From the NCBI RefSeq assembly GCF_003574735.1, contig NZ_QORW01000026.1, forward strand, positions 1-64,000: a stretch of 64,000 nucleotides of DNA. Reading direction: 5' to 3'. The stretch comes from Dongia deserti. Its GTDB lineage: Bacteria; Pseudomonadota; Alphaproteobacteria; Dongiales; Dongiaceae. The notes beneath the pieces are model-generated. The model was not told where the DNA came from, ran no database searches, and saw only the letters and a list, made by a program, of their open reading frames with translations. The translations under genes were made by a program, and so were the position numbers. The stretch's first letter is position 1. Each line of letters opens with the position of its first letter. Positions 5,899 to 64,000 of the stretch are shown here, piece after piece.

Positions 5899-6134
5899 CC
5901 CCCCAAAAAATTGCGCCGGCAGCGGCGGGGGACCACTGCCGGCGCGGTGCCACCTCTGGGGAAAGGCGGCTGTCGACGGGCTACCGTGGGGGACGGGCAC
6001 CGCCGACAAAGACTAAACAGCCGGCAAAGAGCCCCAATACGAGTTCATCAGGCCTGGGATTATCCGCACCTTGACCGGTCACCGGCGCAATCATTCCCAC
6101 CGGGAGCCGGTGGTGGGGCATCGGACGGGTTCTA

Positions 6135-6297
6135 ATGGATACGTACATCGCGATACTCGTGCCCGAGGGCGCGAGCGGCTGGACTATGATTTACCGGGGT
6201 GCGTGGATGCCGCAGGGTGACTGCCGGTGCGCTACGGTTTCACCGATCCAGCTGAGGCGAGATCGTTTGTCTCGCCCGCAAGTTCCTCCGAATTGAG
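6135..6297 (+). pseudogene. HicB-like antitoxin remnant
   Basis: From the ATG at 6135 the frame reads MDTYIAILVPEGASGW, which resembles the start of HicB-type antitoxins. The expected next part, YDLPGCVDAAG, is found in another frame shortly after. A small indel near 6180 separates the two halves. No HicA toxin is visible nearby. The match is short, so this is a tentative call. Confidence 0.4.
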
Positions 6298-6429
6298 TGC
6301 CCGTGCTGCCAAGACTCGCCAGCACTCCTCCATGTTAGTGAGCATGTTGCGACGGGGCATATCCTCCGTGCCTTCGGCCATGTGCTTGCAGTCGGCGGCG
6401 AGCGATAGATATACGTCGGAACGCTTCAT
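6232..6429 (-). CDS. Small helical hypothetical protein
   Basis: About 65 residues from the ATG at 6429. The pattern YLSLAADCKHMAEGTEDMPRRNML followed by MEECWRVLAARA resembles small Bradyrhizobium-type proteins built of two helices around an E-x-W-x2-LA motif. Their function is unknown. The frame is open upstream to 6525, but the shorter form fits that group better. It overlaps the end of the HicB-like remnant on the other strand. Confidence 0.5.
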   Translation of the reverse strand: MKRSDVYLSLAADCKHMAEGTEDMPRRNMLTNMEECWRVLAARALNSEELAGETNDLASAGSVKP

Positions 6430-44514: not shown

Positions 44515-44570
44515 TGGTGCCCGCGGCCGGACTCGAACCGGCACGGCCCTTTCGGGCCGAGGGATTTTAA
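44515..44570 (-). other. Attachment site: 3' fragment of tRNA-Leu (TAA)
   Basis: On the minus strand the sequence from the anticodon loop onwards is intact: TTAAAATCCCTCGG, a variable-arm hairpin GGCCC-GAAA-GGGCC, the T arm GCCGGTTCGAGTCCGGC, GCGGGCA and CCA (ending at 44515). The 5' half does not follow; the bases beyond 44570 do not match a tRNA-Leu. This is what remains of the target tRNA's 3' end after site-specific integration. The intact gene should lie at the other end of the element. Confidence 0.85.
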
Positions 44571-44750
44571 GCCAGCTCCGCGCGGTTATCCTATTTCTAT
44601 CCGGCAGCGCGAATTCATTCGCTAAGCGCCTGAGATAGATAGACTTTCTGTCCGGCGCAACCGACCTTGTATAGCCGGAACTGCGAAGCAGCCGGCTTTC
44701 TGGCGGCCCCTGGTTGGCCCCTGAATGTCGGCAAGGAACGGAGCGCTCGA

Positions 44751-46169
44751 ATGGCCAAGATCAAACTCACAAAGACCGCGGTCGACGCAGCCACGTTCGG
44801 CGCCAAGGAGTACGAGCTGCGCGACAGCATCGTGCCTGGGTTTCTCCTGAAGGTCACGCCCGCTGGCCGAAAGATCTTCATGGTTCAGTATCGCACCAAC
44901 GCGGGTGAACGCCGGAAGCCAGCGATCGGCCGTTTCGGCGAACTCACAGTCGAGCAAGCTCGCTCGATTGCTCAGGACTGGCTTGCAGACGTGCGCAAGG
45001 GCAAAGACCCAAGCGCGGACAAGACGGCTGCACGTGCGGCTCCGACCACGAAACAGCTTTGCACCAAATTGATGGAAGACTACTCGAAACCAAAGAACCG
45101 GAGGCGAACGGTTGAAAGCAACCAAGGTTACATAGATCGCCACATCATTCCCAAACTTGGCGCTCTGAAGGTGCGTGAGGTCACTCGGTCGGATGTATCG
45201 GGCCTCATCACTCGGATGAAGAAGACGCCCGTGACCGCCAATCGCGTTCTGTCCTGCCTTCGCAAGATGTTCAACATGGCCGAGGTCTGGGGTTTTCGTG
45301 ACGACGGCACCAATCCATGCCGCCACATCCCGAAGTACCCGGAAGGCGGCAAGACACGGCTGATAACCGATGATGAGATGGTTCGGCTATTCGGCTACCT
45401 CCAGCGGGCGGAGGTGGAGGGACTGGAGCACCCGTTCCTCACCCTTGGAATCCGTCTGCAGTTCGCCTTTGCGGCTCGCATGTCAGAGATCATCAACATG
45501 AAATGGGATTGGGTTGACTTCGCTAATCGGCGCATCGTCTGGCCAGACAGCAAGACTGGCGAAATCTCGAAACCCATGAGCGAGGATGCTTTCATCCTTC
45601 TCTCAACGGTGCCGCGCTTGGAAGACTCCCCTTACGTCGTGCCGTCCATTTTCAAGCCCGAGCGACCAATGTCGCAATACACTTATTTCAAGGGGTGGAA
45701 GCGCATCCTCAAGCGAGCAAAAGTTCCACACGTGGGAACGCATGGGATCCGCCACCGCGCCACCACGGAGATCGCGAATTCGGGCGTGCCGGTGAAAGTC
45801 GGCATGCAGCTCACCGCTCACAAGACAGTCACTCAGTTCATGCGCTACGTGCACACGGAGGACGACCCTGTGCGCGCGGCGGCAGAAATCGTCGCCTCTC
45901 GACGCAACACCCTTCTACAGGTCGTGGCAAACGCCCCCGAATCAGCTGCTCCAACGATTTCCGCGCCGGCTCCCCCTCCTCCAGCGCTCGTTGAAGACGG
46001 CCGCTACACGTCACGCACGAAGCTCGGCGCCTATCGCCCATTTCGACATCGCTGCGGCGCGAATCGAGAAGTTCCGCCGGGAACCAAGCGAGCCGCTGAT
46101 CGACAAGATGATACGCTCGGGACACGGCGCGCTCACCGTGGACTATCAGAGACTTCCTCCCCGGCATGA
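44751..46169 (+). CDS. Tyrosine recombinase (phage-type integrase)
   Basis: 472 residues. An Arm-binding DUF4102-like N-terminus (VDAATFGAKEYELRDSIVPGFLLKV, landmark) is followed by the core-binding domain and the catalytic domain, with Arg243 (AARMSE), His331-x2-Arg334 (HGIRHR), His357 and Tyr366 (FMRYVH). After residue about 415 the tail is proline-rich and low in homology. It lies 180 bases from the tRNA-Leu fragment, as expected for an integrase that uses that site. Confidence 0.92.
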   Translation: MAKIKLTKTAVDAATFGAKEYELRDSIVPGFLLKVTPAGRKIFMVQYRTNAGERRKPAIGRFGELTVEQARSIAQDWLADVRKGKDPSADKTAARAAPTTKQLCTKLMEDYSKPKNRRRTVESNQGYIDRHIIPKLGALKVREVTRSDVSGLITRMKKTPVTANRVLSCLRKMFNMAEVWGFRDDGTNPCRHIPKYPEGGKTRLITDDEMVRLFGYLQRAEVEGLEHPFLTLGIRLQFAFAARMSEIINMKWDWVDFANRRIVWPDSKTGEISKPMSEDAFILLSTVPRLEDSPYVVPSIFKPERPMSQYTYFKGWKRILKRAKVPHVGTHGIRHRATTEIANSGVPVKVGMQLTAHKTVTQFMRYVHTEDDPVRAAAEIVASRRNTLLQVVANAPESAAPTISAPAPPPPALVEDGRYTSRTKLGAYRPFRHRCGANREVPPGTKRAADRQDDTLGTRRAHRGLSETSSPA

Positions 46170-50893: not shown

Positions 50894-52885
50894 TTATTCA
50901 GCTGCGACAGCCGACTCGTGGGTTTGCGTCCCGATGTCTGGCCCGGAGGTTCTGAGAAGCGCGGGCAACCAGCCGGTTCCGGCGAGAAGCTGTTCGGCGG
51001 CCTCCGCCATCGCCTGCTTCTTCATGCCCCGCAGCCGATGTGCCGCTTCCTCGCCCACGGCCTCCTGCACGGCCTCAAGGATATGCGCCTTGGTGACCCG
51101 ACCGAAGTAACTCCGCACTGTCGGCGCCCAATGCGCTGTCATATCGAGGGCGAGCGCGCCCGCCAGCCCGTCAGCCGTCGCCCAGGCACGCGGCTTGCGA
51201 TCCCATGGCTGGCGGACTGCGAACACGGTGAGCGACGTACAGTGCGCGAACAGGGCCATCCGGCTGTCGTGGTCGAGCCCTACCACGAACGTCCACAGAT
51301 CGGCGGCGTCCTTTGGCATCTGCACGGCCCAGGTTTCGTGCCGCTCGGCCAACTTCCTCGCCGCCGCCGTGTCCTCGATCCCGTCAGCATGCCCACCCAA
51401 CGGCGTGCTGGCCGGCGTGATGTCGAGACAGGCTCCCGTGTCATAACCCCGATAGAAGGTCTGCGCGACCAAGGCGTGGGTGACGGCAACGAGGGCAATG
51501 TCGGGGCTCTCGCCAACTGCGATGCGGAGCGCCAGGGTGCGATGCGCACTCAGATCGCGGATGAGAAGGTCCGACAGAGGCTTGCCGTTGTCGTCCTCCG
51601 TGTCCTCCTGCTCCGTCTTAGGGGACACGGCGGCTTCGCCCTCGATGCCTTCGTGATCTCCGGTGACGATCTCGCCGTTGCTCTCCGTTTCCGGCGCCCG
51701 ATCGGGCTGCTTCTCATCCTCGGGACGGATGAAGCCGCGTTCGATGCGGGCCGTGCCGTCGTGGTTCAACACCACGAACACGCCGCCATGCGCGATATCG
51801 TCGGCATCGTAGGCGCGCTGCCGTTCCGATAGCCGATCGATCCCTGCCTCAAGCTCGCCGAACTTGGCGTCAACGTCGTCGGGAAGCTCTTCGGCGCTAT
51901 CGTACTGCTCCGACAAAGCATCGTACTCCGCCTGGACGGCATCGAGTTCTGCCTGATCTTCGGGCGAGAGAGGGACCGGCTGCCGATAGATGCGCCGCAG
52001 GCCGTGCGCGTGCGGATAGTCGATGAAGGCCTGCACCCACTTCCATCCTTCGGTCTGAACCTCGGTCGCGACTGTTTCCAGTTTCTCGACAGCGAGACGA
52101 TCAAGCAACCCGGCATCCGCGAAGTAGCCGCCGTCGTCCTCCGAAAACAAGTCGCGCAGAACCGCTCCACCCGCCGCGATGTAAGCGTCCGCTCCAACGA
52201 ATACGGCACGCCGGTCGCTCGCTCGAACGTGGGTTTCCGTCATCATTCGGCGGATGACGGACGGCTCCTTGTTCCAGGACAGGTTGCCATAAACCTGCTC
52301 TTGGCGCTCATGGTCCTCGCTGATCGCGAAGGCCATCAACTGGTCCAGTGTCAGCGCACCCTCGCGATAGACCTGCATCAGCTTGGGGCTGACTGCGCCG
52401 AGGCGGAGTCGCTGGCGTACCACGTGGGGCGTCACGCCGAAACGCGCGGCGATCTCTTCCGCGCCCCAACCATTCTCTTCGCTCAGACGCCGGAACGCCT
52501 CGAACTGGTCGGCGGGGTGCATGTCGCTACGGGTCACGTTCTCGTCCAGGCTGATCTCGTGGGGATCGTTGGCCGCGTCGAGGACACAGCGGATTGGCTC
52601 GTTCTTCTTGATCTGCTTGCGGTTGGCGCGCAGAAGATGCGCCAAACGACGACCCTCGCCTACCGTGACGAAGTAGAACCCAGTTTCTACCCCCTCCTCG
52701 TCCCACTCGGGTTCGACGACCAGGTTTTGCAGCATGCCCTTGGCTTCGATGCTTGCTGCCAGTGCCTCGATGGCCGCATCGCTGTGCGGCATCTTGCGGG
52801 CGTTCCGGGGCGACTTCTTGAGCTTGTTAAGCGGGACGAACACCTCGGAACGGTTCTCGGTGACAGTTTCGATCTTCTTGGTCAT
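50894..52885 (-). CDS. ParB/RepB/Spo0J-family partition-like protein
   Basis: 663 residues. The ParB N-terminal domain (FVPLNKLKKSPRNARKMP, VTVGEGRRLAHLLR) and the central HTH ([29 protein letters not shown], landmark) are clear. A long C-terminal part of 400 residues, as in ICE-borne large ParB proteins, is partly acidic with a coiled stretch near residue 330. AAAGGAGACT precedes the ATG at 52885. Role: element maintenance or regulation; no ParA adjoins it. Confidence 0.9.
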   Translation of the reverse strand: MTKKIETVTENRSEVFVPLNKLKKSPRNARKMPHSDAAIEALAASIEAKGMLQNLVVEPEWDEEGVETGFYFVTVGEGRRLAHLLRANRKQIKKNEPIRCVLDAANDPHEISLDENVTRSDMHPADQFEAFRRLSEENGWGAEEIAARFGVTPHVVRQRLRLGAVSPKLMQVYREGALTLDQLMAFAISEDHERQEQVYGNLSWNKEPSVIRRMMTETHVRASDRRAVFVGADAYIAAGGAVLRDLFSEDDGGYFADAGLLDRLAVEKLETVATEVQTEGWKWVQAFIDYPHAHGLRRIYRQPVPLSPEDQAELDAVQAEYDALSEQYDSAEELPDDVDAKFGELEAGIDRLSERQRAYDADDIAHGGVFVVLNHDGTARIERGFIRPEDEKQPDRAPETESNGEIVTGDHEGIEGEAAVSPKTEQEDTEDDNGKPLSDLLIRDLSAHRTLALRIAVGESPDIALVAVTHALVAQTFYRGYDTGACLDITPASTPLGGHADGIEDTAAARKLAERHETWAVQMPKDAADLWTFVVGLDHDSRMALFAHCTSLTVFAVRQPWDRKPRAWATADGLAGALALDMTAHWAPTVRSYFGRVTKAHILEAVQEAVGEEAAHRLRGMKKQAMAEAAEQLLAGTGWLPALLRTSGPDIGTQTHESAVAAE

Positions 52886-52900
52886 TGTCAGTCTCCTTTG

Positions 52901-53160
52901 GGTTGGGGTGTCAGCGCAGCGCTGCGCTGCACCCCTGCCCGTCGGCGAGACCGGGGGTAGCAAGGGCCAGGGCGGCCGGGGCGGAGGGGGATCGCCCGCC
53001 CGGAGGGCCGCACGGAACGCGCGGGTCTGCACAAGCGCATTTGCGCCTTTGGGCATTTCAGGCTGTCAGGGAGCGCGGAAGACCGGGGAGACCGCCCCGG
53101 TCGGCGCCGGCGGGGGCCGGCGCTCTACCCTGGCGCGCGCGAGGGGCGGAGCCCCTTTAG
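52901..53160 (-). promoter_or_regulatory. Repeated leader B (upstream of the ParB gene)
   Basis: Homologous to 49131-49322. The hairpin GGGGTG (52905-52910) / CACCCC (52930-52935) around GCGCAGCGCTGCGC (52914-52927) is identical. The blocks GGCGGAGGGGGATC, GGGGAGACCGCCC and GCGCGCGAGGG are again present, with extra sequence between them. It ends a few bases from the ribosome binding site. Confidence 0.7.
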
Positions 53161-53215: not shown

Positions 53216-53365
53216 GAAAAACTGACCTCGGAGCGTTTTTCGGGCTGGCGCAGTTTTCGAGATTGAGCTTGATGGCTGGTAACAGTTATTGTGTCCCTCA
53301 AGAATCCTGGCGGGCAAAAAACTGCACTCCACGGATTCGATCTCTCTGAGAATGTTGTGCAGTTT
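53216..53365. promoter_or_regulatory. Repeated AAACTGCRC sites before the modification cluster
   Basis: Four related half-sites occur in 150 bases. AAAAACTGAC is at 53216-53225, GCGCAGTTT at 53248-53256, AAACTGCAC at 53319-53327 and GTGCAGTTT at 53357-53365. The last two form a 9-bp inverted repeat whose right arm ends one base before the proposed start codon at 53367. This could be an operator or a hairpin that controls translation of the cluster. Confidence 0.45.
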
Positions 53366-53366
53366 G

Positions 53367-54302
53367 ATGCCTCTTGTAATCACTGCCTGTACTAACCGAA
53401 AGCGACTCGCGCCTGCGGACGAGATGCGAGCAGACGACCTTGCGATCGATTCGCTGGCCAGAGTGTCGCGAGCATGGACGGCGCGAGTGCAAAAGGCTCC
53501 GCGGATAGCTCCAGCATCGCGACTGTATTGTGGACGGTCGTTTATGGAAGCGACTGAGGCAGCCCGGCGCCTGGAAGGAACATTGGGAATCGTATCGGCC
53601 GGCCTTGGGTTCGTACCTGGGGAATTGTTCGTCCCCAGCTATGGCCTCACTGTGGTGTCCGGCCAGCCTGATAACGTCTTGGAGCGCATTTCCCCGCGTG
53701 TCTCGCCCAAGGACTGGTGGGACCGCCTATCAGCCCTATCCCCTCTGAACCATAGCGTTGCCAAAGAGGCGAGAGCTACCTCGGGGCTCATCGTGGTCGC
53801 TCTACCTGAGAGTTATCTTGAAATGATCTCTGGCGAACTTGCGGGCTTGCCCAAGGCTGTGCGCTCGCGCTTGCGAATCATGACAGGCACGATGTCAGAG
53901 CGCGTAGATCCTCGCCTGCGTGCCTGGCTCATGCCCTACGATGACCGACTTGATGGGCCTGACAGCCCCCTCCCCGGAACGCGGTCCGACTTCGCTACAA
54001 GAGCGGCGCGTCACTTCGTGGAAGCTGTGGCCGTCGTGGCGCCGAAGGCGGACGCCGCAGTGCACGCGGCGAGTGTTGGCACCCTCCTATCTAAGTGGCG
54101 GCGGCCGCGAGTGATCCTGCGGCAGCAGAAGACCGACTCTGAATTGCTGCAACTGCTGCGCCGTCATTGGAAGAGTGCGGATGGCAGGTCCGGGCGCCTG
54201 CTACGGGTGCTGCGCGACGACCTTCGCGTGTCTTGCGAGCAGGGACGCCTCGCCAGACTGGTAGCGCAGATCCGGGACGAACGGAGGGAACGCTTTGGGT
54301 AA
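53367..54302 (+). CDS. YaaA/DUF6884-like protein, candidate DpdC-type enzyme
   Basis: About 311 residues from the ATG at 53367 (the frame is open from a TTG at 53289). The N-terminal domain shows ITACTNRK (5-12), SRLYCGRSF (51-59), IVSAGLGFV (75-83) and PSYGLTV (90-96). That layout is seen in the YaaA and DUF6884 folds. The C-terminal 100 residues are helical and basic. It is first in the cluster with dpdA, and its stop overlaps the next start by eight bases. In known dpd clusters a third gene (dpdC) turns the preQ0 base in DNA into the amide; this protein is a candidate for such a role, which is an inference. Confidence 0.65.
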   Translation: MPLVITACTNRKRLAPADEMRADDLAIDSLARVSRAWTARVQKAPRIAPASRLYCGRSFMEATEAARRLEGTLGIVSAGLGFVPGELFVPSYGLTVVSGQPDNVLERISPRVSPKDWWDRLSALSPLNHSVAKEARATSGLIVVALPESYLEMISGELAGLPKAVRSRLRIMTGTMSERVDPRLRAWLMPYDDRLDGPDSPLPGTRSDFATRAARHFVEAVAVVAPKADAAVHAASVGTLLSKWRRPRVILRQQKTDSELLQLLRRHWKSADGRSGRLLRVLRDDLRVSCEQGRLARLVAQIRDERRERFG

Positions 54303-55419
54303 AAAGGGTGGCGATCTGGTCGTCAGGGCCGTAAGGACTGAGCAGGGCGACAATATCGATGTGTTCGCCTTCTTCCTCTATGGATCGGACTTGGCTCGGG
54401 TTGCGGATATCAGCCGCATTCATCGGGATGAAAGTGGCCTGAAGGGGTTTCAGCGGAAGGAGATTCGCAATCATGTTCGTTCGATCGCTGAGTTTCTCAA
54501 CAGTGGCCCAGTATTGTTTCCAAATGCCATTATTCTCGCGTTATCACCCAAGGTGAGGTTCGAGAACTCGCGCGGTCCAAGACCCAAGGGTCTGATTGAG
54601 GTCGGCAAGTCGGGCACACTCACCATCCCACTCCGCCCGGAGGGTGAGCGGGCCGCTTGGATTGTTGATGGCCAACAACGTTCACTTGCACTGGCCCAAG
54701 CAAAGAACAGTCGGCTTCCCGTTCCGGTGATTGGGTTCGTGTCAGCTGACCTGCAGATCCATCGCGAGCAATTCATCCTCGTAAATAAGGTTCGGCCGCT
54801 ACACCCCCGGCTAATCAATGAGTTGCTACCAGAAGTGAGCACGCTCTTACCGCGCGATCTCGCCGCGAGAAAGCTACCGAGTGAATTGTGCAACTACCTG
54901 AACAGAGATCCGAAATCTCCTTTCCATCGCCTTATCCGCCGCGTTTCCGACCCAAAGAATGCGACGGGGGTCGTCACGGATACAGCCATTGTTGATGCGA
55001 TCAGATTGAACCTCAAGCCGCCCATGGGGGCACTCAGCCAATACAAGCGAAATGGTAGCGGTTCGGATCCCGACGCCATGTACCGAACCCTGGTACTCTA
55101 CTGGAGAGCTGTGCGGGACGTCTTCAGATCTGCGTGGGGCAAGCCACCGCAGAAGAGCAGGCTCATGCATTCGGCGGGTATCCGCGCAATGTCGGCCTTG
55201 ATGGATCAAGTCATGCTTCGTGCTGACAGTTCGGCGACGCCCGACAAAGAGGTGCGGGAATCACTCCGGCGACTCGCACCACACTGCCGTTGGACAGAAG
55301 GGGCCTGGGAAGACCTTGGCTGGCGCTGGAACGAAGTGCAGTCGACCGCTCAGCACATCGCCAAGCTGTCTGATCACCTCATCCGCCTCGATCGCGAACT
55401 CTCACGGCCAGCCAGATGA
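54295..55419 (+). CDS. DndB-like DGQHR-domain protein 1 (DpdB-like)
   Basis: 374 residues. The domain marker reads VDGQQR (124-129) with GFQRKEIRNHVRSIAEFL (51-68) before it and REQFILVNKVRPLHPRLINELLP after it, as in DndB/DGQHR proteins. In dpd systems a protein of this kind helps DpdA place preQ0 into DNA. The start is a TTG at 54295 preceded by GGAGGGAA; the stop overlaps the dpdA start (ATGA). A second member of the family follows dpdA. Confidence 0.82.
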   Translation: MGKKGGDLVVRAVRTEQGDNIDVFAFFLYGSDLARVADISRIHRDESGLKGFQRKEIRNHVRSIAEFLNSGPVLFPNAIILALSPKVRFENSRGPRPKGLIEVGKSGTLTIPLRPEGERAAWIVDGQQRSLALAQAKNSRLPVPVIGFVSADLQIHREQFILVNKVRPLHPRLINELLPEVSTLLPRDLAARKLPSELCNYLNRDPKSPFHRLIRRVSDPKNATGVVTDTAIVDAIRLNLKPPMGALSQYKRNGSGSDPDAMYRTLVLYWRAVRDVFRSAWGKPPQKSRLMHSAGIRAMSALMDQVMLRADSSATPDKEVRESLRRLAPHCRWTEGAWEDLGWRWNEVQSTAQHIAKLSDHLIRLDRELSRPAR

Positions 55420-56807
55420 GGTTTATCTACGCAGACAGTTTGGATGTCGTCGATCCAGCCTACGACTTCGTCCAGGATCGGAATGCGGAAGGCCGGACAC
55501 CATACTGGGATGATGTCTATGCGCACGAGATTCTCGGTTATGCGCCGTATGATGGAATCCTGGTCTCGCGCGGAATCGTTGGCGGCGCGGCGGTAGGAGG
55601 TAAATACACCGAGGCACAGGCGATGCGTTTTCGTCGGGTCGGAGCGCGAACCTTTCTGCGGCTTGATCGACCACAGTTCGCAAAGCTCGCGATCTTCGGC
55701 GATTGCGGAGCCTTCACTTATCACAAGGAAGTGACGCCACCCTACTCGTCGGAGAACATGGTTGAATTCTACGAGGACGGCGGTTTTACCCATGGCTGCT
55801 CGGTCGATCACATCATCTTTGATTTCGATGAGTCGTTGACAGGTCTCTCGGGCGGTTCCGCGGAGGCAAAGCGGCGCTTCGACATCACTCTGGAGAATGC
55901 GTCAACCTTTCTGAAGGCGAGCCACCGCTTGCGTAGTCACTTTACCGCGCTTGGAGTTATCCAGGGCTGGTCGCCTGGAAGTATGGCCGAAGCGGCCCGC
56001 CAACTAGTCGCGATGGGCTACAGCTATTTGGCTCTCGGCGGTACGGTGCCGCTGAAGTCACCGCAGATCAAGGCGTGTTTGCGCGCTATTCGCGAAGCCG
56101 TGCCCACTCGTACGCGACTGCACATCCTAGGCTTCGCAAAGGCTGATGAAATCGAGAGCTTCAGTTCGTTTGGCATCACCAGTTTCGACACGACCTCTCC
56201 GCTAATTCGTGCCTTCAAGGACGCGAAGGCGAACTACTACCTTCGAGCAGAAGACAATCGGCTGACCTACTACACCGCCATCCGCGTTCCTCAGGCACTT
56301 GAAAATCCGAAACTGATGCGGTTGGCCAAACGAGGTCTCCTCCGACAGGAAGATCTTGTCGCATTGGAGCGTCGCGCGCTTGACAGCTTACGGGCGTACG
56401 ATCGCGGGCGCTGCGAACTCGAAGCCACGCTCGACGCCGTGCTTGCGTATGCGACTCCGGCCACATTGGGTACCACCCTCGACGAGCTGCCGGGATCGCG
56501 TTCTGTGGCAGATCTGAGGGCGCGATATGCGCGAACCCTGACTGAACGACCTTGGAAACAATGCTCTTGTGGAATCTGCAAGGAGCTGTCGATCGAGGTC
56601 ATCATCTTCCGCGCAAGCAACCGCAACAAGCGACGTGGCATTCACAACCTTGGCGTCTTTAAGGCGCTTGTTGACACTCTGCCGACCAGAAGTGAGCATC
56701 ATGAAGACTCTGACCTTCGCAGCGATCCGCGCTCGACAAAGTCCTCAACACACCGTCCTGTCGTTCGCCGCTCTCGCGTCCGAACTACAGCGATTTGCGG
56801 CAATTGA
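55416..56807 (+). CDS. dpdA: DpdA-like DNA-guanine transglycosylase
   Basis: 463 residues. A paralogue of tRNA-guanine transglycosylase that exchanges guanine in DNA for preQ0. Seen: FGDCGAFTY (94-102), DHIIFDFDE (131-139), LGVIQGWSP (179-187), LALGGTVPLKSP (205-216), HILGF (236-240) and SFDTTSP (256-262). The zinc site is Cys383-x-Cys385-x2-Cys388 with His410. The GDCGAF form and the queE-queD-queC neighbours separate it from a normal Tgt. Its last 36 codons overlap the next gene in another frame; this tail looks non-homologous and may have arisen by loss of an earlier stop. Confidence 0.88.
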   Translation: MRFIYADSLDVVDPAYDFVQDRNAEGRTPYWDDVYAHEILGYAPYDGILVSRGIVGGAAVGGKYTEAQAMRFRRVGARTFLRLDRPQFAKLAIFGDCGAFTYHKEVTPPYSSENMVEFYEDGGFTHGCSVDHIIFDFDESLTGLSGGSAEAKRRFDITLENASTFLKASHRLRSHFTALGVIQGWSPGSMAEAARQLVAMGYSYLALGGTVPLKSPQIKACLRAIREAVPTRTRLHILGFAKADEIESFSSFGITSFDTTSPLIRAFKDAKANYYLRAEDNRLTYYTAIRVPQALENPKLMRLAKRGLLRQEDLVALERRALDSLRAYDRGRCELEATLDAVLAYATPATLGTTLDELPGSRSVADLRARYARTLTERPWKQCSCGICKELSIEVIIFRASNRNKRRGIHNLGVFKALVDTLPTRSEHHEDSDLRSDPRSTKSSTHRPVVRRSRVRTTAICGN

Positions 56808-57804
56808 GCGGGTTGCCCGCGACACAATGGGCAAGCTGAATGGCTTCCAGCGTCCGCAGATTGCTGGGCATATCCGGGAAATCAAGGATTACCTCGAGAA
56901 GCCTGAGGCAATTCTACCAAATCCCATTGTCGTCGCATTCACTAGCGGGATCGTCATTAAGGACAAAGAGGAAGGCCGTTGTCAGGTGAGCATTGACGTC
57001 AGCAAGGGTCCCCCTGGCCTGGTCGTAGATGGTCAGCAACGTCTGTCGGCCTTGTCGCAACTCAACGGAAAAGACTTTCAGGTGTTCGTCTCGGCCGTGT
57101 TGTGCGAAGACGATGCCGAACTGCGTCGACAGTTCGTGCTCATCAATAACACGCGGCCACTTCCGAAATCGCTCATCTACGAACTCCTGCCAACGGTTGA
57201 CGGACTGCCGCGGCGTCTATCGGACCGATCGCTGGCTGCCGAGTTTACTGCGCGCCTGAATTATGACGCCGGTTCCTCTCTGAAGGGACTCGTCCACCAG
57301 CACACCAATCCAGCTGGCCTTATCAGAGATACCGCAATTCAGCGCGTGATCATAAATTCCCTAGGGGACGGCGTGATGCGTGAGTTGATCCGTCGCAAGA
57401 ATGGAAAAGACCAGTGTTTTGAACTCATCAGCGAATTTTATCGGGCAGTGCAGGACGTTTTTCGGAGCGAATGGAAGGGCCATACTCCAAAGACTTCGCG
57501 TCTAGTACATGGTGCCGGAATCGTCGCGCTCGGTTATGTCATGGAAGTGCTTGCACTTCTCGATGGTGCTCGTTGCTGGGAGGAGTTCACCAAGGGTCTT
57601 GGCTGCCTCGTTGGCCGTACGGCGTGGACGTCGGGCGAATGGGATTTCGGCAGTGGAGACCGCCGGCACTGGAAAGCCATTCAAAACGTGAATCGGGACA
57701 TCGTCACTCTGGCTCAATACCTGATCGGTGTCGTACGCGCCGACGTACGAGCGCGACGTTCCGGCTCTGCTGATCTGCCGTTACTGAAGCCCGCCAATGG
57801 CTGA
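56701..57804 (+). CDS. DndB-like DGQHR-domain protein 2
   Basis: 367 residues. LTFAAIRARQSPQHTVLSF at the start and GFQRPQIAGHIREIKDYL (48-65) resemble DndB. The marker is VVDGQQRLSAL (108-118), followed by LRRQFVLINNTRPLPKSLIYELLP. It is alignable along its length with the protein at 54295-55419 (both have a FRSxWGK/FRSEWKG and SRLxHxAGI segment), so the two are diverged duplicates. The ATG at 56701 lies 107 bases inside the end of dpdA. Ten bases separate it from queE. Confidence 0.82.
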   Translation: MKTLTFAAIRARQSPQHTVLSFAALASELQRFAAIERVARDTMGKLNGFQRPQIAGHIREIKDYLEKPEAILPNPIVVAFTSGIVIKDKEEGRCQVSIDVSKGPPGLVVDGQQRLSALSQLNGKDFQVFVSAVLCEDDAELRRQFVLINNTRPLPKSLIYELLPTVDGLPRRLSDRSLAAEFTARLNYDAGSSLKGLVHQHTNPAGLIRDTAIQRVIINSLGDGVMRELIRRKNGKDQCFELISEFYRAVQDVFRSEWKGHTPKTSRLVHGAGIVALGYVMEVLALLDGARCWEEFTKGLGCLVGRTAWTSGEWDFGSGDRRHWKAIQNVNRDIVTLAQYLIGVVRADVRARRSGSADLPLLKPANG

Positions 57805-57813
57805 GGATTTGCC

Positions 57814-58446
57814 ATGAGCTATGCGGTGAAGGAAATCTTCAAGACGCTACAGGGCGAAGGCGCTCAGGTTGGACGCGTAGCGGTGTTTTGTCGGTTCTCC
57901 GGCTGCAATCTCTGGTCCGGCCGCGAGGCAGACCGTGAAGCTGCCGTTTGTCGGTTCTGTGACACCGAATTCGTAGGCGTAAATGGACTAGGAGGGGGGC
58001 GATTTGATTCGCCCGACGAGTTGGCAGAAGCCCTGGAGGCTACGTGGCAAGGTGATTATGCGCGCCGGTTTGTCGTCTTTACTGGCGGCGAGCCTCTGCT
58101 GCAACTCGATGATGATCTGCTCCAGGCAGTGAAGGAGCGCGGTTTCGAATGCGCGGTAGAGACAAACGGAACCCAGCCAGTACCAAAGGGTCTGGATTGG
58201 ATCTGCGTCAGCCCCAAAGCCGGCGCATCACTCGTTGTCGTGCGGGGTAGTGAACTCAAGCTGGTCTATCCTCAGTCGAACCTCGATCCTGAAAGTCTCG
58301 AGGCGCTTGAATTTGAGCATTGGTGGTTGCAGCCAATGGACGGTAGTAACCGCCAAGCGAATACAGATGCGGCGATCGCATACTGTCTCGCGCACCCACG
58401 TTGGCGCCTGAGCCTACAAACGCACAAGCTCCTTGGGATTCCGTGA
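57814..58446 (+). CDS. queE: 7-carboxy-7-deazaguanine synthase
   Basis: 210 residues. A radical SAM enzyme that rearranges 6-carboxy-tetrahydropterin to 7-carboxy-7-deazaguanine. The cluster motif is C31-x14-C46-x2-C49, the spacing typical of one QueE subclass. FTGGEPLLQ and ETNGTQP are the next motifs. Its TGA overlaps the queD ATG by one base. Supplies the preQ0 pathway that feeds DpdA. Confidence 0.94.
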   Translation: MSYAVKEIFKTLQGEGAQVGRVAVFCRFSGCNLWSGREADREAAVCRFCDTEFVGVNGLGGGRFDSPDELAEALEATWQGDYARRFVVFTGGEPLLQLDDDLLQAVKERGFECAVETNGTQPVPKGLDWICVSPKAGASLVVVRGSELKLVYPQSNLDPESLEALEFEHWWLQPMDGSNRQANTDAAIAYCLAHPRWRLSLQTHKLLGIP

Positions 58447-58823
58447 TGTTTGAACTCTGCAAGCAGTTTCGCTTCGAGGCTGCGCACACCCTTCATCGGG
58501 CAATTGACGCTGAACCTAGCCGTCGGATCCACGGACACTCGTACCGCGCCGAAGTGACAATACGGGGTGAGGCGGACCCAAAATCCGGAATGGTTGTTGA
58601 TCTTGGGCTCTTTGCGCGAGTTCTGGAGGACGTCCGAAACGGCCTGGATCACCGGTTTCTCGATGAGGTGACGGATCTCGGACCGGCGACGATGGAGAAT
58701 CTATCGGTGTGGATTTGGAAGCGGCTGTCATCGGTCGGCGCAGGTTTGGCACGTGTCACGGTCTATCGGGACAGCAACGGAGAATCTTGCAGCTACTTCG
58801 GACCGCGAGAGGACGCACGATGA
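58446..58823 (+). CDS. queD: 6-carboxy-tetrahydropterin synthase family protein
   Basis: 125 residues. FEAAHTL (His14) and IHGHSY (His29, His31) are the zinc ligands, and [13 protein letters not shown] and [10 protein letters not shown] follow as in QueD. The classical C-x3-HGH motif reads S25-R-R-I-HGH here, so the usual catalytic cysteine is replaced by serine. This change may define a subgroup rather than a defect. The stop overlaps the queC start (ATGA). Confidence 0.9.
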
Positions 58824-59560
58824 TAGACAACGAAAGGGCCCTGGTGTTGTTCTCGGGCGGTCAGGATTCCACGACATGTCTGGCGTGGGCCCTTGACCGA
58901 TTCGAGCATGTGGAAACCGTGGGCTTTGAGTACGGACAGCGGCATCGCATCGAATTGGACTGTCGCCAGCGTCTGCGCCAGGGCCTGATGGACCTCAATC
59001 TTTATTGGGCCAAAAGGCTCAAGGAGGACCACGTTCTGGGACTCACTGCGCTCGGCGAGGTGTCGAACACCGCCCTCACTCGTGATGTTGCGATTGAGAT
59101 GGGCGATAGCGGGCTGCCGAACACGTTCGTGCCAGGCCGGAATCTCGTCTTCCTCACCTTCGCTGCGGCGCTGGCCTATCGGCGGGGGCTGCGGCACCTA
59201 GTTGGTGGCATGTGCGAGACGGACTACTCTGGCTATCCGGACTGCCGCGACGACACGATCAAGGCGCTGCAGGTGACGCTTAATCTTGGCATGGAGCGGC
59301 GCTTCGTTCTGCACATGCCGCTGATGTGGATTGACAAGGCGCAGACTTGGAAACTGGCCAGAACTCTCGGCGGCGATGCTCTGGTCGAACTTGTCACGCA
59401 GGAGACGCACACGTGTTATCTCGGCGATCGAAGTCGTCGACACGCGTGGGGGTATGGCTGCGGTGAATGTCCGGCCTGTCGCCTTCGAGCAGATGGGTTT
59501 GCCCGATACTGCGCCCAGACGGAGGCGAGCACCATTGAGCGGGAGGTGGCGCATGCGTGA
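58820..59560 (+). CDS. queC: 7-cyano-7-deazaguanine (preQ0) synthase
   Basis: 246 residues. The PP-loop SGGQDST (12-18) and the C-terminal zinc cysteines Cys214, Cys217 and Cys220 ([11 protein letters not shown]), with Cys199, are present. QueC makes preQ0 from carboxydeazaguanine with ammonia and ATP. Overlaps queD by four bases and the transporter gene by eight. Confidence 0.94.
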
Positions 59561-60119
59561 ACTCGAACGCCGGCGGCGCCTGGAAGGTGGTTTTTTCCTG
59601 GCGGCATTCGCGGCTTGCGTCCCAGCAGCGAATTGGATGATCGGCAACATTGGCACGGTCTGCGTGCCCAATGGGCCGTGCCTCATTCCGGTGGCACCAG
59701 AGATAACCGCTCCGAGCGGCGTCTTGCTTGTGGGACTCGCACTAGTGTTGCGGGATCTTGTACAGCGACGATTAGGTCTGCGTTGGGCGGCCAGCGCGAT
59801 TCTGCTGGGTGCCGCCTTGTCGGCTACATTCGCGCCTTCGAGTCTCGTCTTCGCCTCAGCCGTCGCCTTTCTGTTTTCAGAATTCGCTGACATGGCTGTC
59901 TACACTCCATTGCAGCGCCGTGGCTTTGTGGTCGCGGCGATCGCAAGCAGTGTCGTCGGACTAGTCATCGATAGCATCGCCTTTCTGTGGCTCGCCTTCG
60001 GCAGTCTGGATTTTCTGGTGGGCCAAGTGATCGGAAAGGCCTGGATGGTACTGATCGCTGTGCCCATGCTTTGGTGGTTACGCGAGCGCGACCGCCGCGT
60101 AGGGCTGTCGCCCACCTAA
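59553..60119 (+). CDS. yhhQ: VUT/YhhQ-family queuosine-precursor transporter
   Basis: 188 residues with about six membrane segments ([64 protein letters not shown] as landmarks). The [11 protein letters not shown] and [15 protein letters not shown] motifs match the Vut_1 family; YhhQ of E. coli imports preQ0 and preQ1. GGGAGGTG precedes the ATG at 59553. With queE-queD-queC upstream it gives the cluster both synthesis and uptake of the base. Confidence 0.85.
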
Positions 60120-60145: not shown

Positions 60146-61147
60146 ATGAACGCGTCTGCAACACCAACGGCGACAGAAATCAGTCGAGCGAAGCCGGAGG
60201 GTCGCCTTGGGCCAGTCGGCGCTTTCTTTGGAGCACTGATCGGCCGCAGGCTTGATTACTATCCGCGTTTTCCGCAGACCGATGGGCGTTGGCAAAAGAT
60301 ACCTGATGCGGAGATGATTGAACGAGTTGCAGCAGGATTGGCGAATCTGAAGCTAGACGATACGGCGACTATCAAGGAGACGCTAGAGCGCGGCCGCGAA
60401 AGCTTGGATGAGGTCAAGGAATTGACCGAGTACCAAGATCAGAAGGCGACCCGATTACTGACGATCATCACCTTCTTGAGTGCGCTTTCCGGGATTCTCT
60501 TTGCAAGGTTTTTCGAGAGCTATCCGCTGCACGCCAGCTTGGCGCACGCAGATCTCACAGTGGCGGCCCGCGCGCTCATTGTGACTAGCTATGCACTATT
60601 CGCCATGTTTGCCTTTCTGGCAATCTGCGGTGCTCTTGTCGTCTTCCACGCCACTCGAACACAGTTTCGGTATCCCGACACTACTGCGGGTGCGCGAGAG
60701 CGGACCAATTCATATCTCTTCTATAAGTCGATCATTGAAGTGGCGCCTGAGGCGTGGGCGCGGTCGTTCGTCGACGCAAATGGCGAACAGGTCGCCCCGG
60801 ACTTGCAGCTGCGGTACCTCCGAAACTACATCGTTGAGAGCTATCTCGTTGCAGCGAAGGTTGCCGAGAAGCTGCGCTATCTTCAACCTGCGCAGATGAT
60901 CCTCTCATGGTCGATCCGTGTGCTTCTGCTCTGGCTGATCTCATTGGGCGCTACGATTGCGCTTGTACCCGCCGAAAGCCGGATCTCGACCGCGCCAGGG
61001 TCGACGGTCTCGGACACTAATGTGGTGACACCGGAGACTGCACCGACGGGGACGCCAACTGGCGAGCTCCCTCAGCCTGTGATGGAGCCCTCAAAGATTT
61101 CCCCGATGCCGCTCAAGCCCCAAGAGTCGCCTTTGCAGGAAGAGTGA
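60146..61147 (+). CDS. Three-span membrane protein of unknown function
   Basis: 333 residues. A soluble N-terminus (1-95), spans at about 102-121, 142-167 and 251-273, and a proline-rich C-terminal tail. The ELTEYQDQKATRLLTIITFLSALSGILFA region (landmark) recalls the membrane part of small nucleotide-gated effectors (Pycsar-TM/SLATT-like), but the similarity is by eye only. GAGAGGTG precedes the ATG at 60146. It ends one base before the HAD gene, so the two act as a pair. Role in the DNA-modification cluster unknown. Confidence 0.72.
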   Translation: MNASATPTATEISRAKPEGRLGPVGAFFGALIGRRLDYYPRFPQTDGRWQKIPDAEMIERVAAGLANLKLDDTATIKETLERGRESLDEVKELTEYQDQKATRLLTIITFLSALSGILFARFFESYPLHASLAHADLTVAARALIVTSYALFAMFAFLAICGALVVFHATRTQFRYPDTTAGARERTNSYLFYKSIIEVAPEAWARSFVDANGEQVAPDLQLRYLRNYIVESYLVAAKVAEKLRYLQPAQMILSWSIRVLLLWLISLGATIALVPAESRISTAPGSTVSDTNVVTPETAPTGTPTGELPQPVMEPSKISPMPLKPQESPLQEE

Positions 61148-61148
61148 T

Positions 61149-61919
61149 GTGCCAGCAGAAGAGAACGAAGCAGCTGTCGTTTTTGTAGATGCGGACAACA
61201 CTCTGTGGGAGACGGACGCCGTCTACGCCACTGCGCAGCTAGATCTATTGTCGGCTGTCGAGAAAGCGGTTGGCGTGGTTGCACCGACTGAGGATCGGCT
61301 CGGATTTGTGAGATCGATCGATCAAAGTATCGCCCAACGCCATCATGCGGGCTTGCGCTATCCGCCGAAGCTCTTGGTGAAGGCGCTTGCTTTGGTTCTG
61401 AAGGGCGTGCCGCCGAAAACAGCGACGAGACGGGCATGGCAGAGTTCGGATACGGATCAAACTCTGTCTGATGACGCGGCTGCCCGTATTGAAGGCGCCT
61501 TTCTTTCTGCTCTTCGGACTTTGCCCGCACTCCGTACTGGTGTGCGCAACGGGCTCGTGGCCTTACGTGAGGCTGGCAGCGTCGTCTTTATCATCACAGA
61601 AGGCGGGCGCGATCGGGTTCTGCGCCTCGCTAGAGTTCACGGATTGGAGAGCCTCTTTGATCGCGTCATTGAAGCTCCGAAGGGTCCGAGGATCTATCTG
61701 CGTGCGCTGCGCCTGCTTCGCCGACCCGCCAATGCTTTCATGGTTGGCGATCAGCTCGATCGAGACATTCGCCCGGCGAAAGAGGCCGGGCTAAAGACGA
61801 TCTATTTCCCGGGTGGATTTCGCCCGAGTTGGGAGCCAAATGAAGCCTCCGTACGTCCGGATTTCCACATTGATCGCTTTGACATGGTTCCGCGTATAGT
61901 CTTAGCCAAGGCGGTATAG
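61149..61919 (+). CDS. HAD-superfamily hydrolase
   Basis: 256 residues. Motif I VDADNT (13-18; Asp14 nucleophile, Asp16), motif II FIITEGGRD, and motif IV VGDQLDRDIRPAKEAGLKTIYF are present, with FRPSWEPNE after it. A large cap domain lies between motifs I and II. The start is a GTG at 61149 with GGAAG upstream. Coupled to the membrane-protein gene; substrate unknown. A hairpin ends the transcript at 61921-61945. Confidence 0.85.
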   Translation: MPAEENEAAVVFVDADNTLWETDAVYATAQLDLLSAVEKAVGVVAPTEDRLGFVRSIDQSIAQRHHAGLRYPPKLLVKALALVLKGVPPKTATRRAWQSSDTDQTLSDDAAARIEGAFLSALRTLPALRTGVRNGLVALREAGSVVFIITEGGRDRVLRLARVHGLESLFDRVIEAPKGPRIYLRALRLLRRPANAFMVGDQLDRDIRPAKEAGLKTIYFPGGFRPSWEPNEASVRPDFHIDRFDMVPRIVLAKAV

Positions 61920-62651: not shown

Positions 62652-63449
62652 TCAATGCTGACACGTGCTACAAAAGTAAGTTGTACGCTGCTCGATTTCT
62701 GTCGTTGCAATTCTCGAGTGAGTGCCACACCTATGGCAGGAGTCTCCTACACGACCGTAAACGGCGAAGCGCCTCTCAAAGTCTCCGGCTTCGCCTTCGG
62801 TCCCACGGTAGTCATCAAGGGTCGATCCACCGCGCGCTATTGCGGCCGCAAGAGTTGCCTTGATGGCGAGGATAATGGCTGATCGTTCGTCGGTGGTTAG
62901 AGTCTTGGTCGGCCGACATGGGTTGATGTGGGCCCGAAACAAACTTTCGCTCGAATAGATGTTACCCAGGCCGGCGACGATTTTCTGGTCCATGAGCACA
63001 GCCTTAATCGGTCGCTTGGTCTGGATTGCAAGTGTAGCGCTGCGAAAATCACTGCTAAGCGCATCGGGACCGAGTTGCCGCAGCTTGTCATTTGAATCGC
63101 CTCTACTGACCATTACCTCCCCAAATCGACGGAAGTCATTGTAAGTGAGACACGTGTCGGCGCCGAAGTGGATCGAAAAATGGTCATGACGTCGGCCGAA
63201 CGGCCGCAGAACCAACCGTCCAGACATGCCTAGGCGAATGTATACTGACATGCGCTCGCTCAAGTGAAGCAACAGCACTTTGCCATGTCGCTCGAGGCGA
63301 AGTAATCTCCTTCCGACCAAATCGCAGTTTCCAATCGCACCAAACCGGCTGCTGACAGCTGGTGCAAGTCGCAGATCTGTAATCGACTTTTCGCAGAGGG
63401 CGCTTGCGAGCGTCCTCCGCATAGCTTCAACTTCCGGCAACTCAGGTAT
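62652..63449 (-). CDS. mutM: Formamidopyrimidine-DNA glycosylase family (Fpg/MutM-like)
   Basis: About 265 residues. PELPEVEAMRRTL opens the protein, KVLLLHL follows, then the H2TH segment QKIVAGLGNIYSSESLFRAHINP (landmark). A zinc finger closes it (CHRCGTHSRIATTEIEQRTTYFCSTC, landmark). Fpg enzymes use the N-terminal Pro exposed by removal of Met. Here the codon before Pro is ATA (63449-63447); a GTG one codon earlier would give Met-Ile-Pro and bury the nucleophile. GGGAGG lies six bases before ATA but only three before GTG. The coordinates given use the ATA start, which is unproven. Confidence 0.82.
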   Translation of the reverse strand: MPELPEVEAMRRTLASALCEKSITDLRLAPAVSSRFGAIGNCDLVGRRLLRLERHGKVLLLHLSERMSVYIRLGMSGRLVLRPFGRRHDHFSIHFGADTCLTYNDFRRFGEVMVSRGDSNDKLRQLGPDALSSDFRSATLAIQTKRPIKAVLMDQKIVAGLGNIYSSESLFRAHINPCRPTKTLTTDERSAIILAIKATLAAAIARGGSTLDDYRGTEGEAGDFERRFAVYGRVGDSCHRCGTHSRIATTEIEQRTTYFCSTCQH

Positions 63450-63452
63450 CAC

Positions 63453-63755: not shown

Positions 63756-64000
63756 TTAGGCCGCTGCCTGCAGACCGGAACGCGAGTTAGCCAAGTTCTG
63801 CAAGAGAGACTTGATTACCGTGCCGTCGCCCTCGCTGAAGCCACCCTTCTCAAGCAGATAACCCGCCGTGGCCTTGACGCCCGGACCGGTGTTGTTCACC
63901 CGCTCACCCACCATAGCGATTCCATTCCAGTGCGGCCCCTTATGCCAGTCGACCGTGCGCAGGCAGCGTGCCAGATCCTCCGACCAGTCGTCCGGCTTGT
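63756..64000 (-). CDS. C-terminal part of a possible third DndB-like protein
   Basis: The last 81 codons of a minus-strand gene entering from the right: KPDDWSEDLARCLRTVDW, then WNGIAMVGERVNNTGPGVKATAGYLLEKGGF (landmark), SLLQNLANSRSGLQAAA and a stop. The DW-x-x-x-x-x-WNGIAMVG-x-V pattern resembles the C-terminus of ICE-borne DndB/DGQHR proteins, but the DGQHR motif itself is outside the window, so the assignment is tentative. Confidence 0.55.
   Translation of the reverse strand, partial: KPDDWSEDLARCLRTVDWHKGPHWNGIAMVGERVNNTGPGVKATAGYLLEKGGFSEGDGTVIKSLLQNLANSRSGLQAAA

Follow-up and report, generated by a model that had tools for sequence, protein, structure and literature searches.

The stretch analysed here (the window) covers positions 1 to 64,000 of contig NZ_QORW01000026.1 (72,885 bases long; C19 among the 51 contigs of the genome) of Dongia deserti. 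A 21.3 kb genomic island that begins in this window carries a compact cassette of eight genes of the dpd type, the kind described as placing 7-deazaguanine bases into DNA. The next two genes, encoding a membrane protein and a HAD-family phosphatase (together, the pair), recur with dpd cassettes, and because of this recurrence the cassette may not be modification-only. We consider it very probable that the cassette writes a 7-deazaguanine into DNA and probable that the pair belongs to the same system; we favour both statements holding jointly, with somewhat less assurance, and a role of the pair as effector is put forward only tentatively.

The eight genes stand in the order dpdC-dpdB-dpdA-dpdB-queE-queD-queC-yhhQ (Table 1). 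All are open and co-directional, and neighbours overlap by 8, 4, 107, 1, 4 and 8 nucleotides (nt) with a single gap of 9 nt, much as the original prediction, made from the letters of the sequence, had described for positions 53367-60119. The 107-nt overlap of dpdA and dpdB2 (56701-56807) has counterparts of about 50-100 nt in the tblastn matches of the rhizobial loci L008-L018. The reading frame of dpdC opens at 53289, and the start at 53367 agrees with relatives. Profile searches identify the two DGQQR proteins as DpdB and bear out the proposed QueE, QueD, QueC and preQ0/preQ1-type transporter, with QueD and the transporter matching their Pfam families while falling below the NCBIfam cut-offs. 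One label did not survive, as the protein called YaaA-like is DpdC. Because of this identification the amide dADG, beyond preQ0, is the likely base predicted for the DNA, by analogy with described relatives; the earlier expectation of preQ0 or its amide keeps its 7-deazaguanine and is corrected to the amide. The original prediction would have failed had DpdA fallen among ordinary tRNA-guanine transglycosylases (Tgt). That comparison was made, and it rejects DpdA as an ordinary Tgt, with 25-30 bits only to Tgt models vs 558.9 bits to its own model NF041059. Across an alignment of 67 DpdA sequences, conservation is at least 97% at D96 (in GDCGAF), D258, C383, C385, C388 and H410; carrying roles over from Tgt enzymes, we take D96 and D258 to be the catalytic aspartates and the cysteines and histidine to be zinc ligands.

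For comparison we assembled 56 dpd loci from one DpdA scan of genome contigs, which reached close relatives only, and with the window these make 57; the addition of 10 plasmid loci, four chosen for holding the pair and six from other DpdA matches, brings the set to 67. A dpdB gene lies on both sides of dpdA in 63 of the 67 loci (56 of 57 without the plasmid additions), and a chance grouping of the eight genes is thereby excluded. This arrangement is lacking in L056, L121, L122 and L120, the last being an Enterobacter plasmid with a single dpdB.

The pair starts 26 nt behind yhhQ, and its HAD gene begins 1 nt after the gene for the membrane protein. No terminator-like site was listed by the terminator scan in the gap between yhhQ and the membrane-protein gene; the promoter and terminator scans gave site numbers no higher than in shuffles. 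The pair is present in 15 of the 57 loci, or in 14 of the 45 with enough flank. Its two genes are adjacent and on the same strand in all 19 loci that hold it among the 67, with spacings from an 88-nt overlap to 31 nt apart, and neither member was seen singly in the 67 loci. In L053 and L054 pair and cassette are on opposite strands. Searches that used only the membrane protein as query are independent of DpdA and carry no dpd bias. Among 72,556 plasmid records four were found, all with dpdA 4.1-4.7 kb upstream; among 385 genomes of the class the only occurrence is the window itself; and among 394 genomes of the family of G388 there are three places in two genomes, of which two are L010 and L013 (with a TAG inside one match) and the third is in G566, beside a full cassette. 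The membrane protein is thus found beside dpdA in 8 of 8 occurrences from searches that owe nothing to DpdA. An alignment of the membrane protein run against viral contigs gave 81 pattern matches, none of which was confirmed.

On the DpdA tree of 67 rows the presence of the pair requires 10 changes, at least nine of them forced by well-supported branches, and on the tree of the 54 rows with enough flank it requires seven. Because of the forced changes, the distribution of the pair is one of repeated gain or loss and not of one frozen neighbourhood. Since the pair was unseen in 31 of the 45 dpd loci with enough flank, it is not needed for modification.

The predicted structure of the HAD protein has a mean predicted local distance difference test score (pLDDT) of 88.8 and shows the HAD fold, with HAD-fold proteins among its top matches (e.g. 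2pke, human HDHD4 and YfnB), and D14, D16, T150, K178, D201 and D206 are invariant in 9 of 9 aligned sequences. The membrane protein has hydrophobic stretches near residues 101-123, 137-172 and 249-278, and 46 positions are invariant in 12 aligned members. Its several hydrophobic segments and weak profile match (29.5 bits) are reminiscent of the PycTM effectors of Pycsar systems. Unlike those effectors, the window protein has no Pfam PycTM match, no cyclase was recognised beside it, and its partner is a HAD protein; of three relatives of the membrane protein scanned with the Pfam PycTM model, one reached 15.5 of the 27.2 bits required.

Several observations weigh against assigning the pair to the dpd system as an effector. 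No Pfam family was found for the membrane protein of the window, and its PycTM likeness comes from PADLOC alone; its predicted structure is poor (mean pLDDT 67.1), and a fold search with this model returned no solved structure at E 0.001. No nucleotide cyclase, including pyrimidine cyclase, was found among the island proteins scanned, small open reading frames excepted. A plasmid search with the HAD protein alone found five records, four shared with the membrane-protein search and one without a DpdA match. Lastly, the pair was unseen in 42 of the 57 loci, some of them with short flanks; counted over the 45 well-flanked loci only, the figure is 31.

In the mechanism that we propose, host FolE and then QueD, QueE and QueC of the island would convert GTP to preQ0, and YhhQ would import further preQ0. 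DpdA would swap guanine in DNA for preQ0, with DpdB1 and DpdB2 as two distinct partners, and DpdC would turn the preQ0 base into the amide (dADG). The mark would label the DNA of island and host as self and would protect the island. The pair would be an accessory effector of this same system, in which the phosphatase may read or remove a nucleotide and the membrane protein may act on meeting infection or unmodified DNA. Both the two distinct DpdB partners and the role of the pair are what we infer. For the pair we tentatively favour the accessory-effector interpretation, because the pair is linked to dpd without being tied to one arm, is dispensable, is membrane-bound and includes a phosphatase-type enzyme.

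An alternative is a housekeeping function, in which the HAD protein is a nucleotidase that clears 7-deazaguanine nucleotides freed from degraded modified DNA and the membrane protein serves as an anchor or exporter. YfnB and the human phosphatase HDHD4 are among the top structure matches of the HAD model, the YjjG/YfnB nucleotidase model is weakly matched (29.3 bits, with 159.9 required), and the pair accompanies differing companion genes, all of which agree with such a role. A function of this kind sits less easily with the 42 loci that carry the same modification genes and in which the pair was unseen, and the substrate of a HAD protein is not readable from its fold at about 20% identity. 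We regard this explanation as rather unlikely.

The companions of the pair differ from locus to locus: DpdD, DpdK and DpdJ; DpdE and DpdF; c17, a 790-residue protein with a weak PD-(D/E)XK match, followed in other loci by a DpdJ-like helicase; a UvrD-type helicase with a PD-(D/E)XK nuclease; or none. None of these companions is present in the window or on one Sinorhizobium plasmid, within the sequence compared. The same modification cassette is accompanied by at least four different sets of companions. The UvrD/PD-(D/E)XK set occurs in nine of the 67 loci, eight of them with the pair, and in the ninth, L039, the sequence stops 5.3 kb past dpdA, possibly cutting off the pair. With the 13 loci of short flanks excluded, the remaining 54 comprise eight with both this set and the pair, 10 with the pair only, none with the set only and 36 with neither (Fisher's exact test, p = 4 × 10-5). 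Leaving out the plasmid loci, of which four had been selected for holding the pair, gives 6, 8, 0 and 31, in the same order (p = 4 × 10-4). Allowing for relatedness, the association is not significant, since among six independent pairs of loci a mean of three agree and none disagree (p at least 0.125).

Some rhizobial relatives invite the view that the window holds the remnant of a fuller system, once made up of the pair, a DndB-like gene, c17 and perhaps a DpdJ-like helicase, and since partly lost. In L011, L012, L041 and G566 the pair, a DndB-like gene and c17 follow one another in that order, and the window has all of these except c17. Contig C19, however, has no match to c17, and for DpdJ it has nothing better than E 0.4; the Sinorhizobium plasmid likewise has the cassette and the pair with no known arm in the sequence compared. 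Such a loss is improbable in our judgement, to about the same degree as the housekeeping function.

A restriction arm was sought across the genome. The best match to DpdE reached 35.9 bits vs the 500 required, and DpdJ gave only short matches, with a best of 22.7 bits, whereas the three control genomes gave 1625.7, 1597 and 318.6 bits. DpdD gave no match genome-wide in a search that showed no signal in any control genome. The dpd-linked PD-(D/E)XK nuclease gave none genome-wide, whereas a control genome was matched with 434.7 bits (54% identity), in addition to the query's own copy. No dpd restriction operon was thus found by way of DpdD, DpdE or DpdJ, with DpdF, G, H, I and K outside the genome-wide search. 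The suggestion that a restriction part lies further right fails, since the right end of the island, at contig position 65,872, is 1.9 kb beyond the window, and the genes that come next are common to 4 of 4 same-family genomes; across all 51 contigs these searches, with the reservation just given for DpdD, returned no real match.

These negatives agree with a modification-only island that marks its own DNA to survive the restriction systems of host and rivals, with the pair as a passenger that has no role in dpd. No known restriction arm is on the island and none of the four proteins sought is in the genome (for DpdD, with that same absence of a working control), and dpd islands lacking a restriction operon are in print (PMC11888242, seen in part). 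Passenger status fits the distribution of the pair badly, given its place beside dpdA in all eight DpdA-independent finds and at least nine moves in or out of dpd loci, and we hold this alternative to be quite unlikely.

The supply of preQ0 is complete, with QueE, QueD and QueC on the island and FolE on contig C24. Because island QueD is the sole copy (the only PTPS-family match genome-wide), while FolE and an ordinary Tgt are encoded in other parts of the genome, island-made preQ0 could also reach tRNA. That the cluster serves tRNA queuosine and not DNA, for which the sole QueD and the ordinary Tgt might speak, is extremely unlikely and is rejected, since DpdA is far from the Tgt models and DpdA, DpdB and DpdC are described for DNA in the parts consulted of PMC11888242 and PMC12839542.

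Taken by itself the cassette adds a member to an established type. Roles in DNA modification have been described for DpdA, DpdB and DpdC (PMC11888242, PMC12839542; both consulted in part), and the available part of PMC11888242 reports, from GATOR-GC counts, dpdABC without a restriction operon among dpd islands, counts 801 additional dpdB copies, names YhhQ as a dpd neighbour and finds Arm-DNA-binding domains (PF13356) to be frequent. As in the dpd system of Salmonella Montevideo and its relatives (dpdA-K), which likewise sits on a genomic island to judge from the same part of PMC11888242, the island combines dpdA, dpdB, dpdC and preQ0 supply. Unlike the Salmonella type, the window has two dpdB clades around dpdA and the extra membrane/HAD pair, and DpdD, DpdE and DpdJ were not found; the Enterobacter plasmid pPOL9A has its single dpdB behind dpdA. 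The BRIGADE systems of haloarchaea likewise join 7-deazaguanine genes with PLD or occasionally PD-(D/E)XK nucleases (PMC12458937, seen in part). They differ in usually having two YprA-like helicases and are reported only from halophilic archaea (same part of PMC12458937), whereas DpdJ, which is of YprA type, was not found in the genome studied here. In the part seen of PMC11888242, the GATOR-GC survey names no membrane/HAD pair and no UvrD-type helicase with the dpd islands, and the literature surveyed names no HAD or membrane pair with dpd, which is a weak negative as the main dpd papers lie outside that survey. Within these limits, the dpd-bound pair, the UvrD/PD-(D/E)XK companion and the separate clades of the two dpdB genes are apparently new.

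In current descriptions a dpd island consists of one operon for synthesis and one for restriction. Should the pair prove to be an effector, dpd would count among the membrane-acting systems, and islands now taken for modification-only would have to be reconsidered. In an extended form of this proposal, which is possible and somewhat doubtful, the pair would be a dedicated mobile effector arm of dpd systems and the only arm in the island of the window, the UvrD/PD-(D/E)XK set would be a further dpd restriction arm, and loci counted as modification-only would hold a modification-dependent, membrane-acting defence that has gone unnoticed.

With its two clades, the dpdB phylogeny makes a two-partner DpdB a testable idea. 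The 63 upstream copies group together without exception, and so, in a clade of their own, do the 63 downstream copies, with FastTree support of 100 and 92; the clades rest on this support, and long branches were flagged. Every one of the 127 dpdB rows from the compared loci keeps the DGQQR motif. The copies look like old separate paralogues and not like a recent duplication. In a class-wide DpdA search, matches occurred in 77 of 385 genomes, above the cut-off in the window only. A further gene, c16, with a weak HNH-nuclease match, is a recurrent neighbour in L022, L038, L039, L040, L042, L052 and L063 and often adjoins an additional DGQHR protein; six of these additional proteins, taken from the loci, group separately from both DpdB clades in a clade of their own.

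Table 1. Coordinates of the island features in the window, with C19 marking positions given on the contig, and the profile matches on which each name is based
Feature	Position	Strand	Evidence and remarks
3' half of host tRNA-Leu(UAA), left island junction	44515..44571	-	core CTTAAAA (7 nt) at 44565-44571
tyrosine integrase of island	44757..46169	+	Pfam PF00589 71.6 bits, PF13356 64.1 bits
ParB-like protein	50894..53056	-	PF17762 29.2 bits; TIGR03734 57.1 bits, below cut-off 278.6
dpdC	53367..54302	+	PADLOC DpdC PDLC02815 335.9 bits, E 6e-101, nearly whole length (no curated cut-off for DpdC in this library); Pfam DUF6884 18.1 bits, below cut-off 30
dpdB1 (DGQQR motif)	54295..55419	+	NCBIfam NF041060 452.5 bits, cut-off 300; upstream-copy clade
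dpdA, DNA 7-deazaguanine transglycosylase	55416..56807	+	NF041059 558.9 bits, cut-off 200; Pfam TGT 28.3 bits, cut-off 26.3
dpdB2 (DGQQR motif)	56701..57804	+	NF041060 383.4 bits, cut-off 300; downstream-copy clade
queE (Cx14CxxC type)	57814..58446	+	TIGR04508 348.7 bits, cut-off 240
queD	58446..58823	+	Pfam PTPS PF01242 106.1 bits; NCBIfam QueD 75 bits, below cut-off 89.25
queC	58820..59560	+	TIGR00364 202.3 bits, cut-off 150.3; PF06508 234.4 bits
yhhQ-type preQ0/queuosine-precursor transporter	59553..60119	+	PF02592 42.5 bits; NCBIfam TIGR00697 32 bits, below cut-off 50.95
membrane protein, weakly PycTM-like, first of pair	60146..61147	+	333 aa; PADLOC PycTM 29.5 bits, E 2e-7
HAD-family phosphatase, second of pair	61149..61919	+	256 aa; PF00702 50.3 bits
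DndB-like DGQHR gene, last protein gene recognised on island	63756..64000, running to C19:65174	-	PF14072 203.4 bits; TIGR03233 147.6 bits, below cut-off 328
island's own tRNA-Leu(UAA), 208-nt intron in anticodon loop	C19:65372-65666	-	exons joined = 87 nt

The cassette had been placed on an integrative element, and the borders can now be given more sharply. The 5' part of a tRNA-Leu is matched over 39 nt at C19:65873-65911 (minus strand) and its 3' part over 31-33 nt at 44515-44547 (minus strand); the anticodon-loop sequence CTTAAAA (7 nt) is common to both island junctions, and 44515-44571 joined to C19:65880-65911 gives a complete 89-nt tRNA-Leu(taa) in ARAGORN. Because the two halves at the island ends share this core and join into a complete gene, we conclude that the island entered the host tRNA-Leu(UAA) gene at its anticodon loop; this gene is left split and is not restored by the island. 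The order of the genes to the right of the island (including sfsA) is conserved in 4 of 4 same-family genomes, in all of which a tRNA-Leu(taa) lies within about 1.4 kb left of these genes. The GC content is 0.604 in the island vs 0.631 elsewhere. A search for direct repeats of at least 14 nt was unhelpful for the island ends, as this minimum exceeds the 7-nt core.

Beyond the right edge of the window, the island consists of the remainder of the DndB-like gene and a tRNA, as judged from open reading frames of at least 100 residues; the same DndB-like gene also lies behind the HAD gene in L011, L012, L041 and G566. The tRNA is a tRNA-Leu(UAA) whose intron interrupts the same anticodon-loop spot as the integrase insertion and matches Rfam Intron_gpI with E 5.5 × 10-8 and a score of 39.3, below the gathering threshold of 50. 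The interrupted loop might shield the island's own tRNA-Leu from the integrase, which we offer as an idea only. This mode of entry, in which the island splits a tRNA gene and delivers a matching tRNA that contains an intron, is of interest by itself. DNA about 84% identical to the intron-bearing tRNA (in the best rows, 298 identical bases out of 351) is carried by 1,272 of the 72,556 plasmid records; where it lies at 6001-6302 of both L133 and L134, no gene is listed, and an aac(3)-II gene is within 1 kb.

The island also contains an Fpg (MutM) glycosylase gene (62652-63452, minus strand; 248.6 bits), with no match in the 56 related dpd loci. The catalytic residue of Fpg is its N-terminal proline; the frame here begins GTG-Ile-Pro, and a catalytic N-terminal proline would require an ATT start. 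Further along the contig, at C19:69708-71761, an open reading frame that is RadC-like by reading only, apparently broken off, is followed by a second tyrosine integrase, and this is perhaps the edge of another element. Near the left end of the window, Rfam PYLIS_3 is matched at 620-719 on the minus strand (57.2 bits, gathering threshold 38), within a long minus-strand open reading frame at 210-1829.

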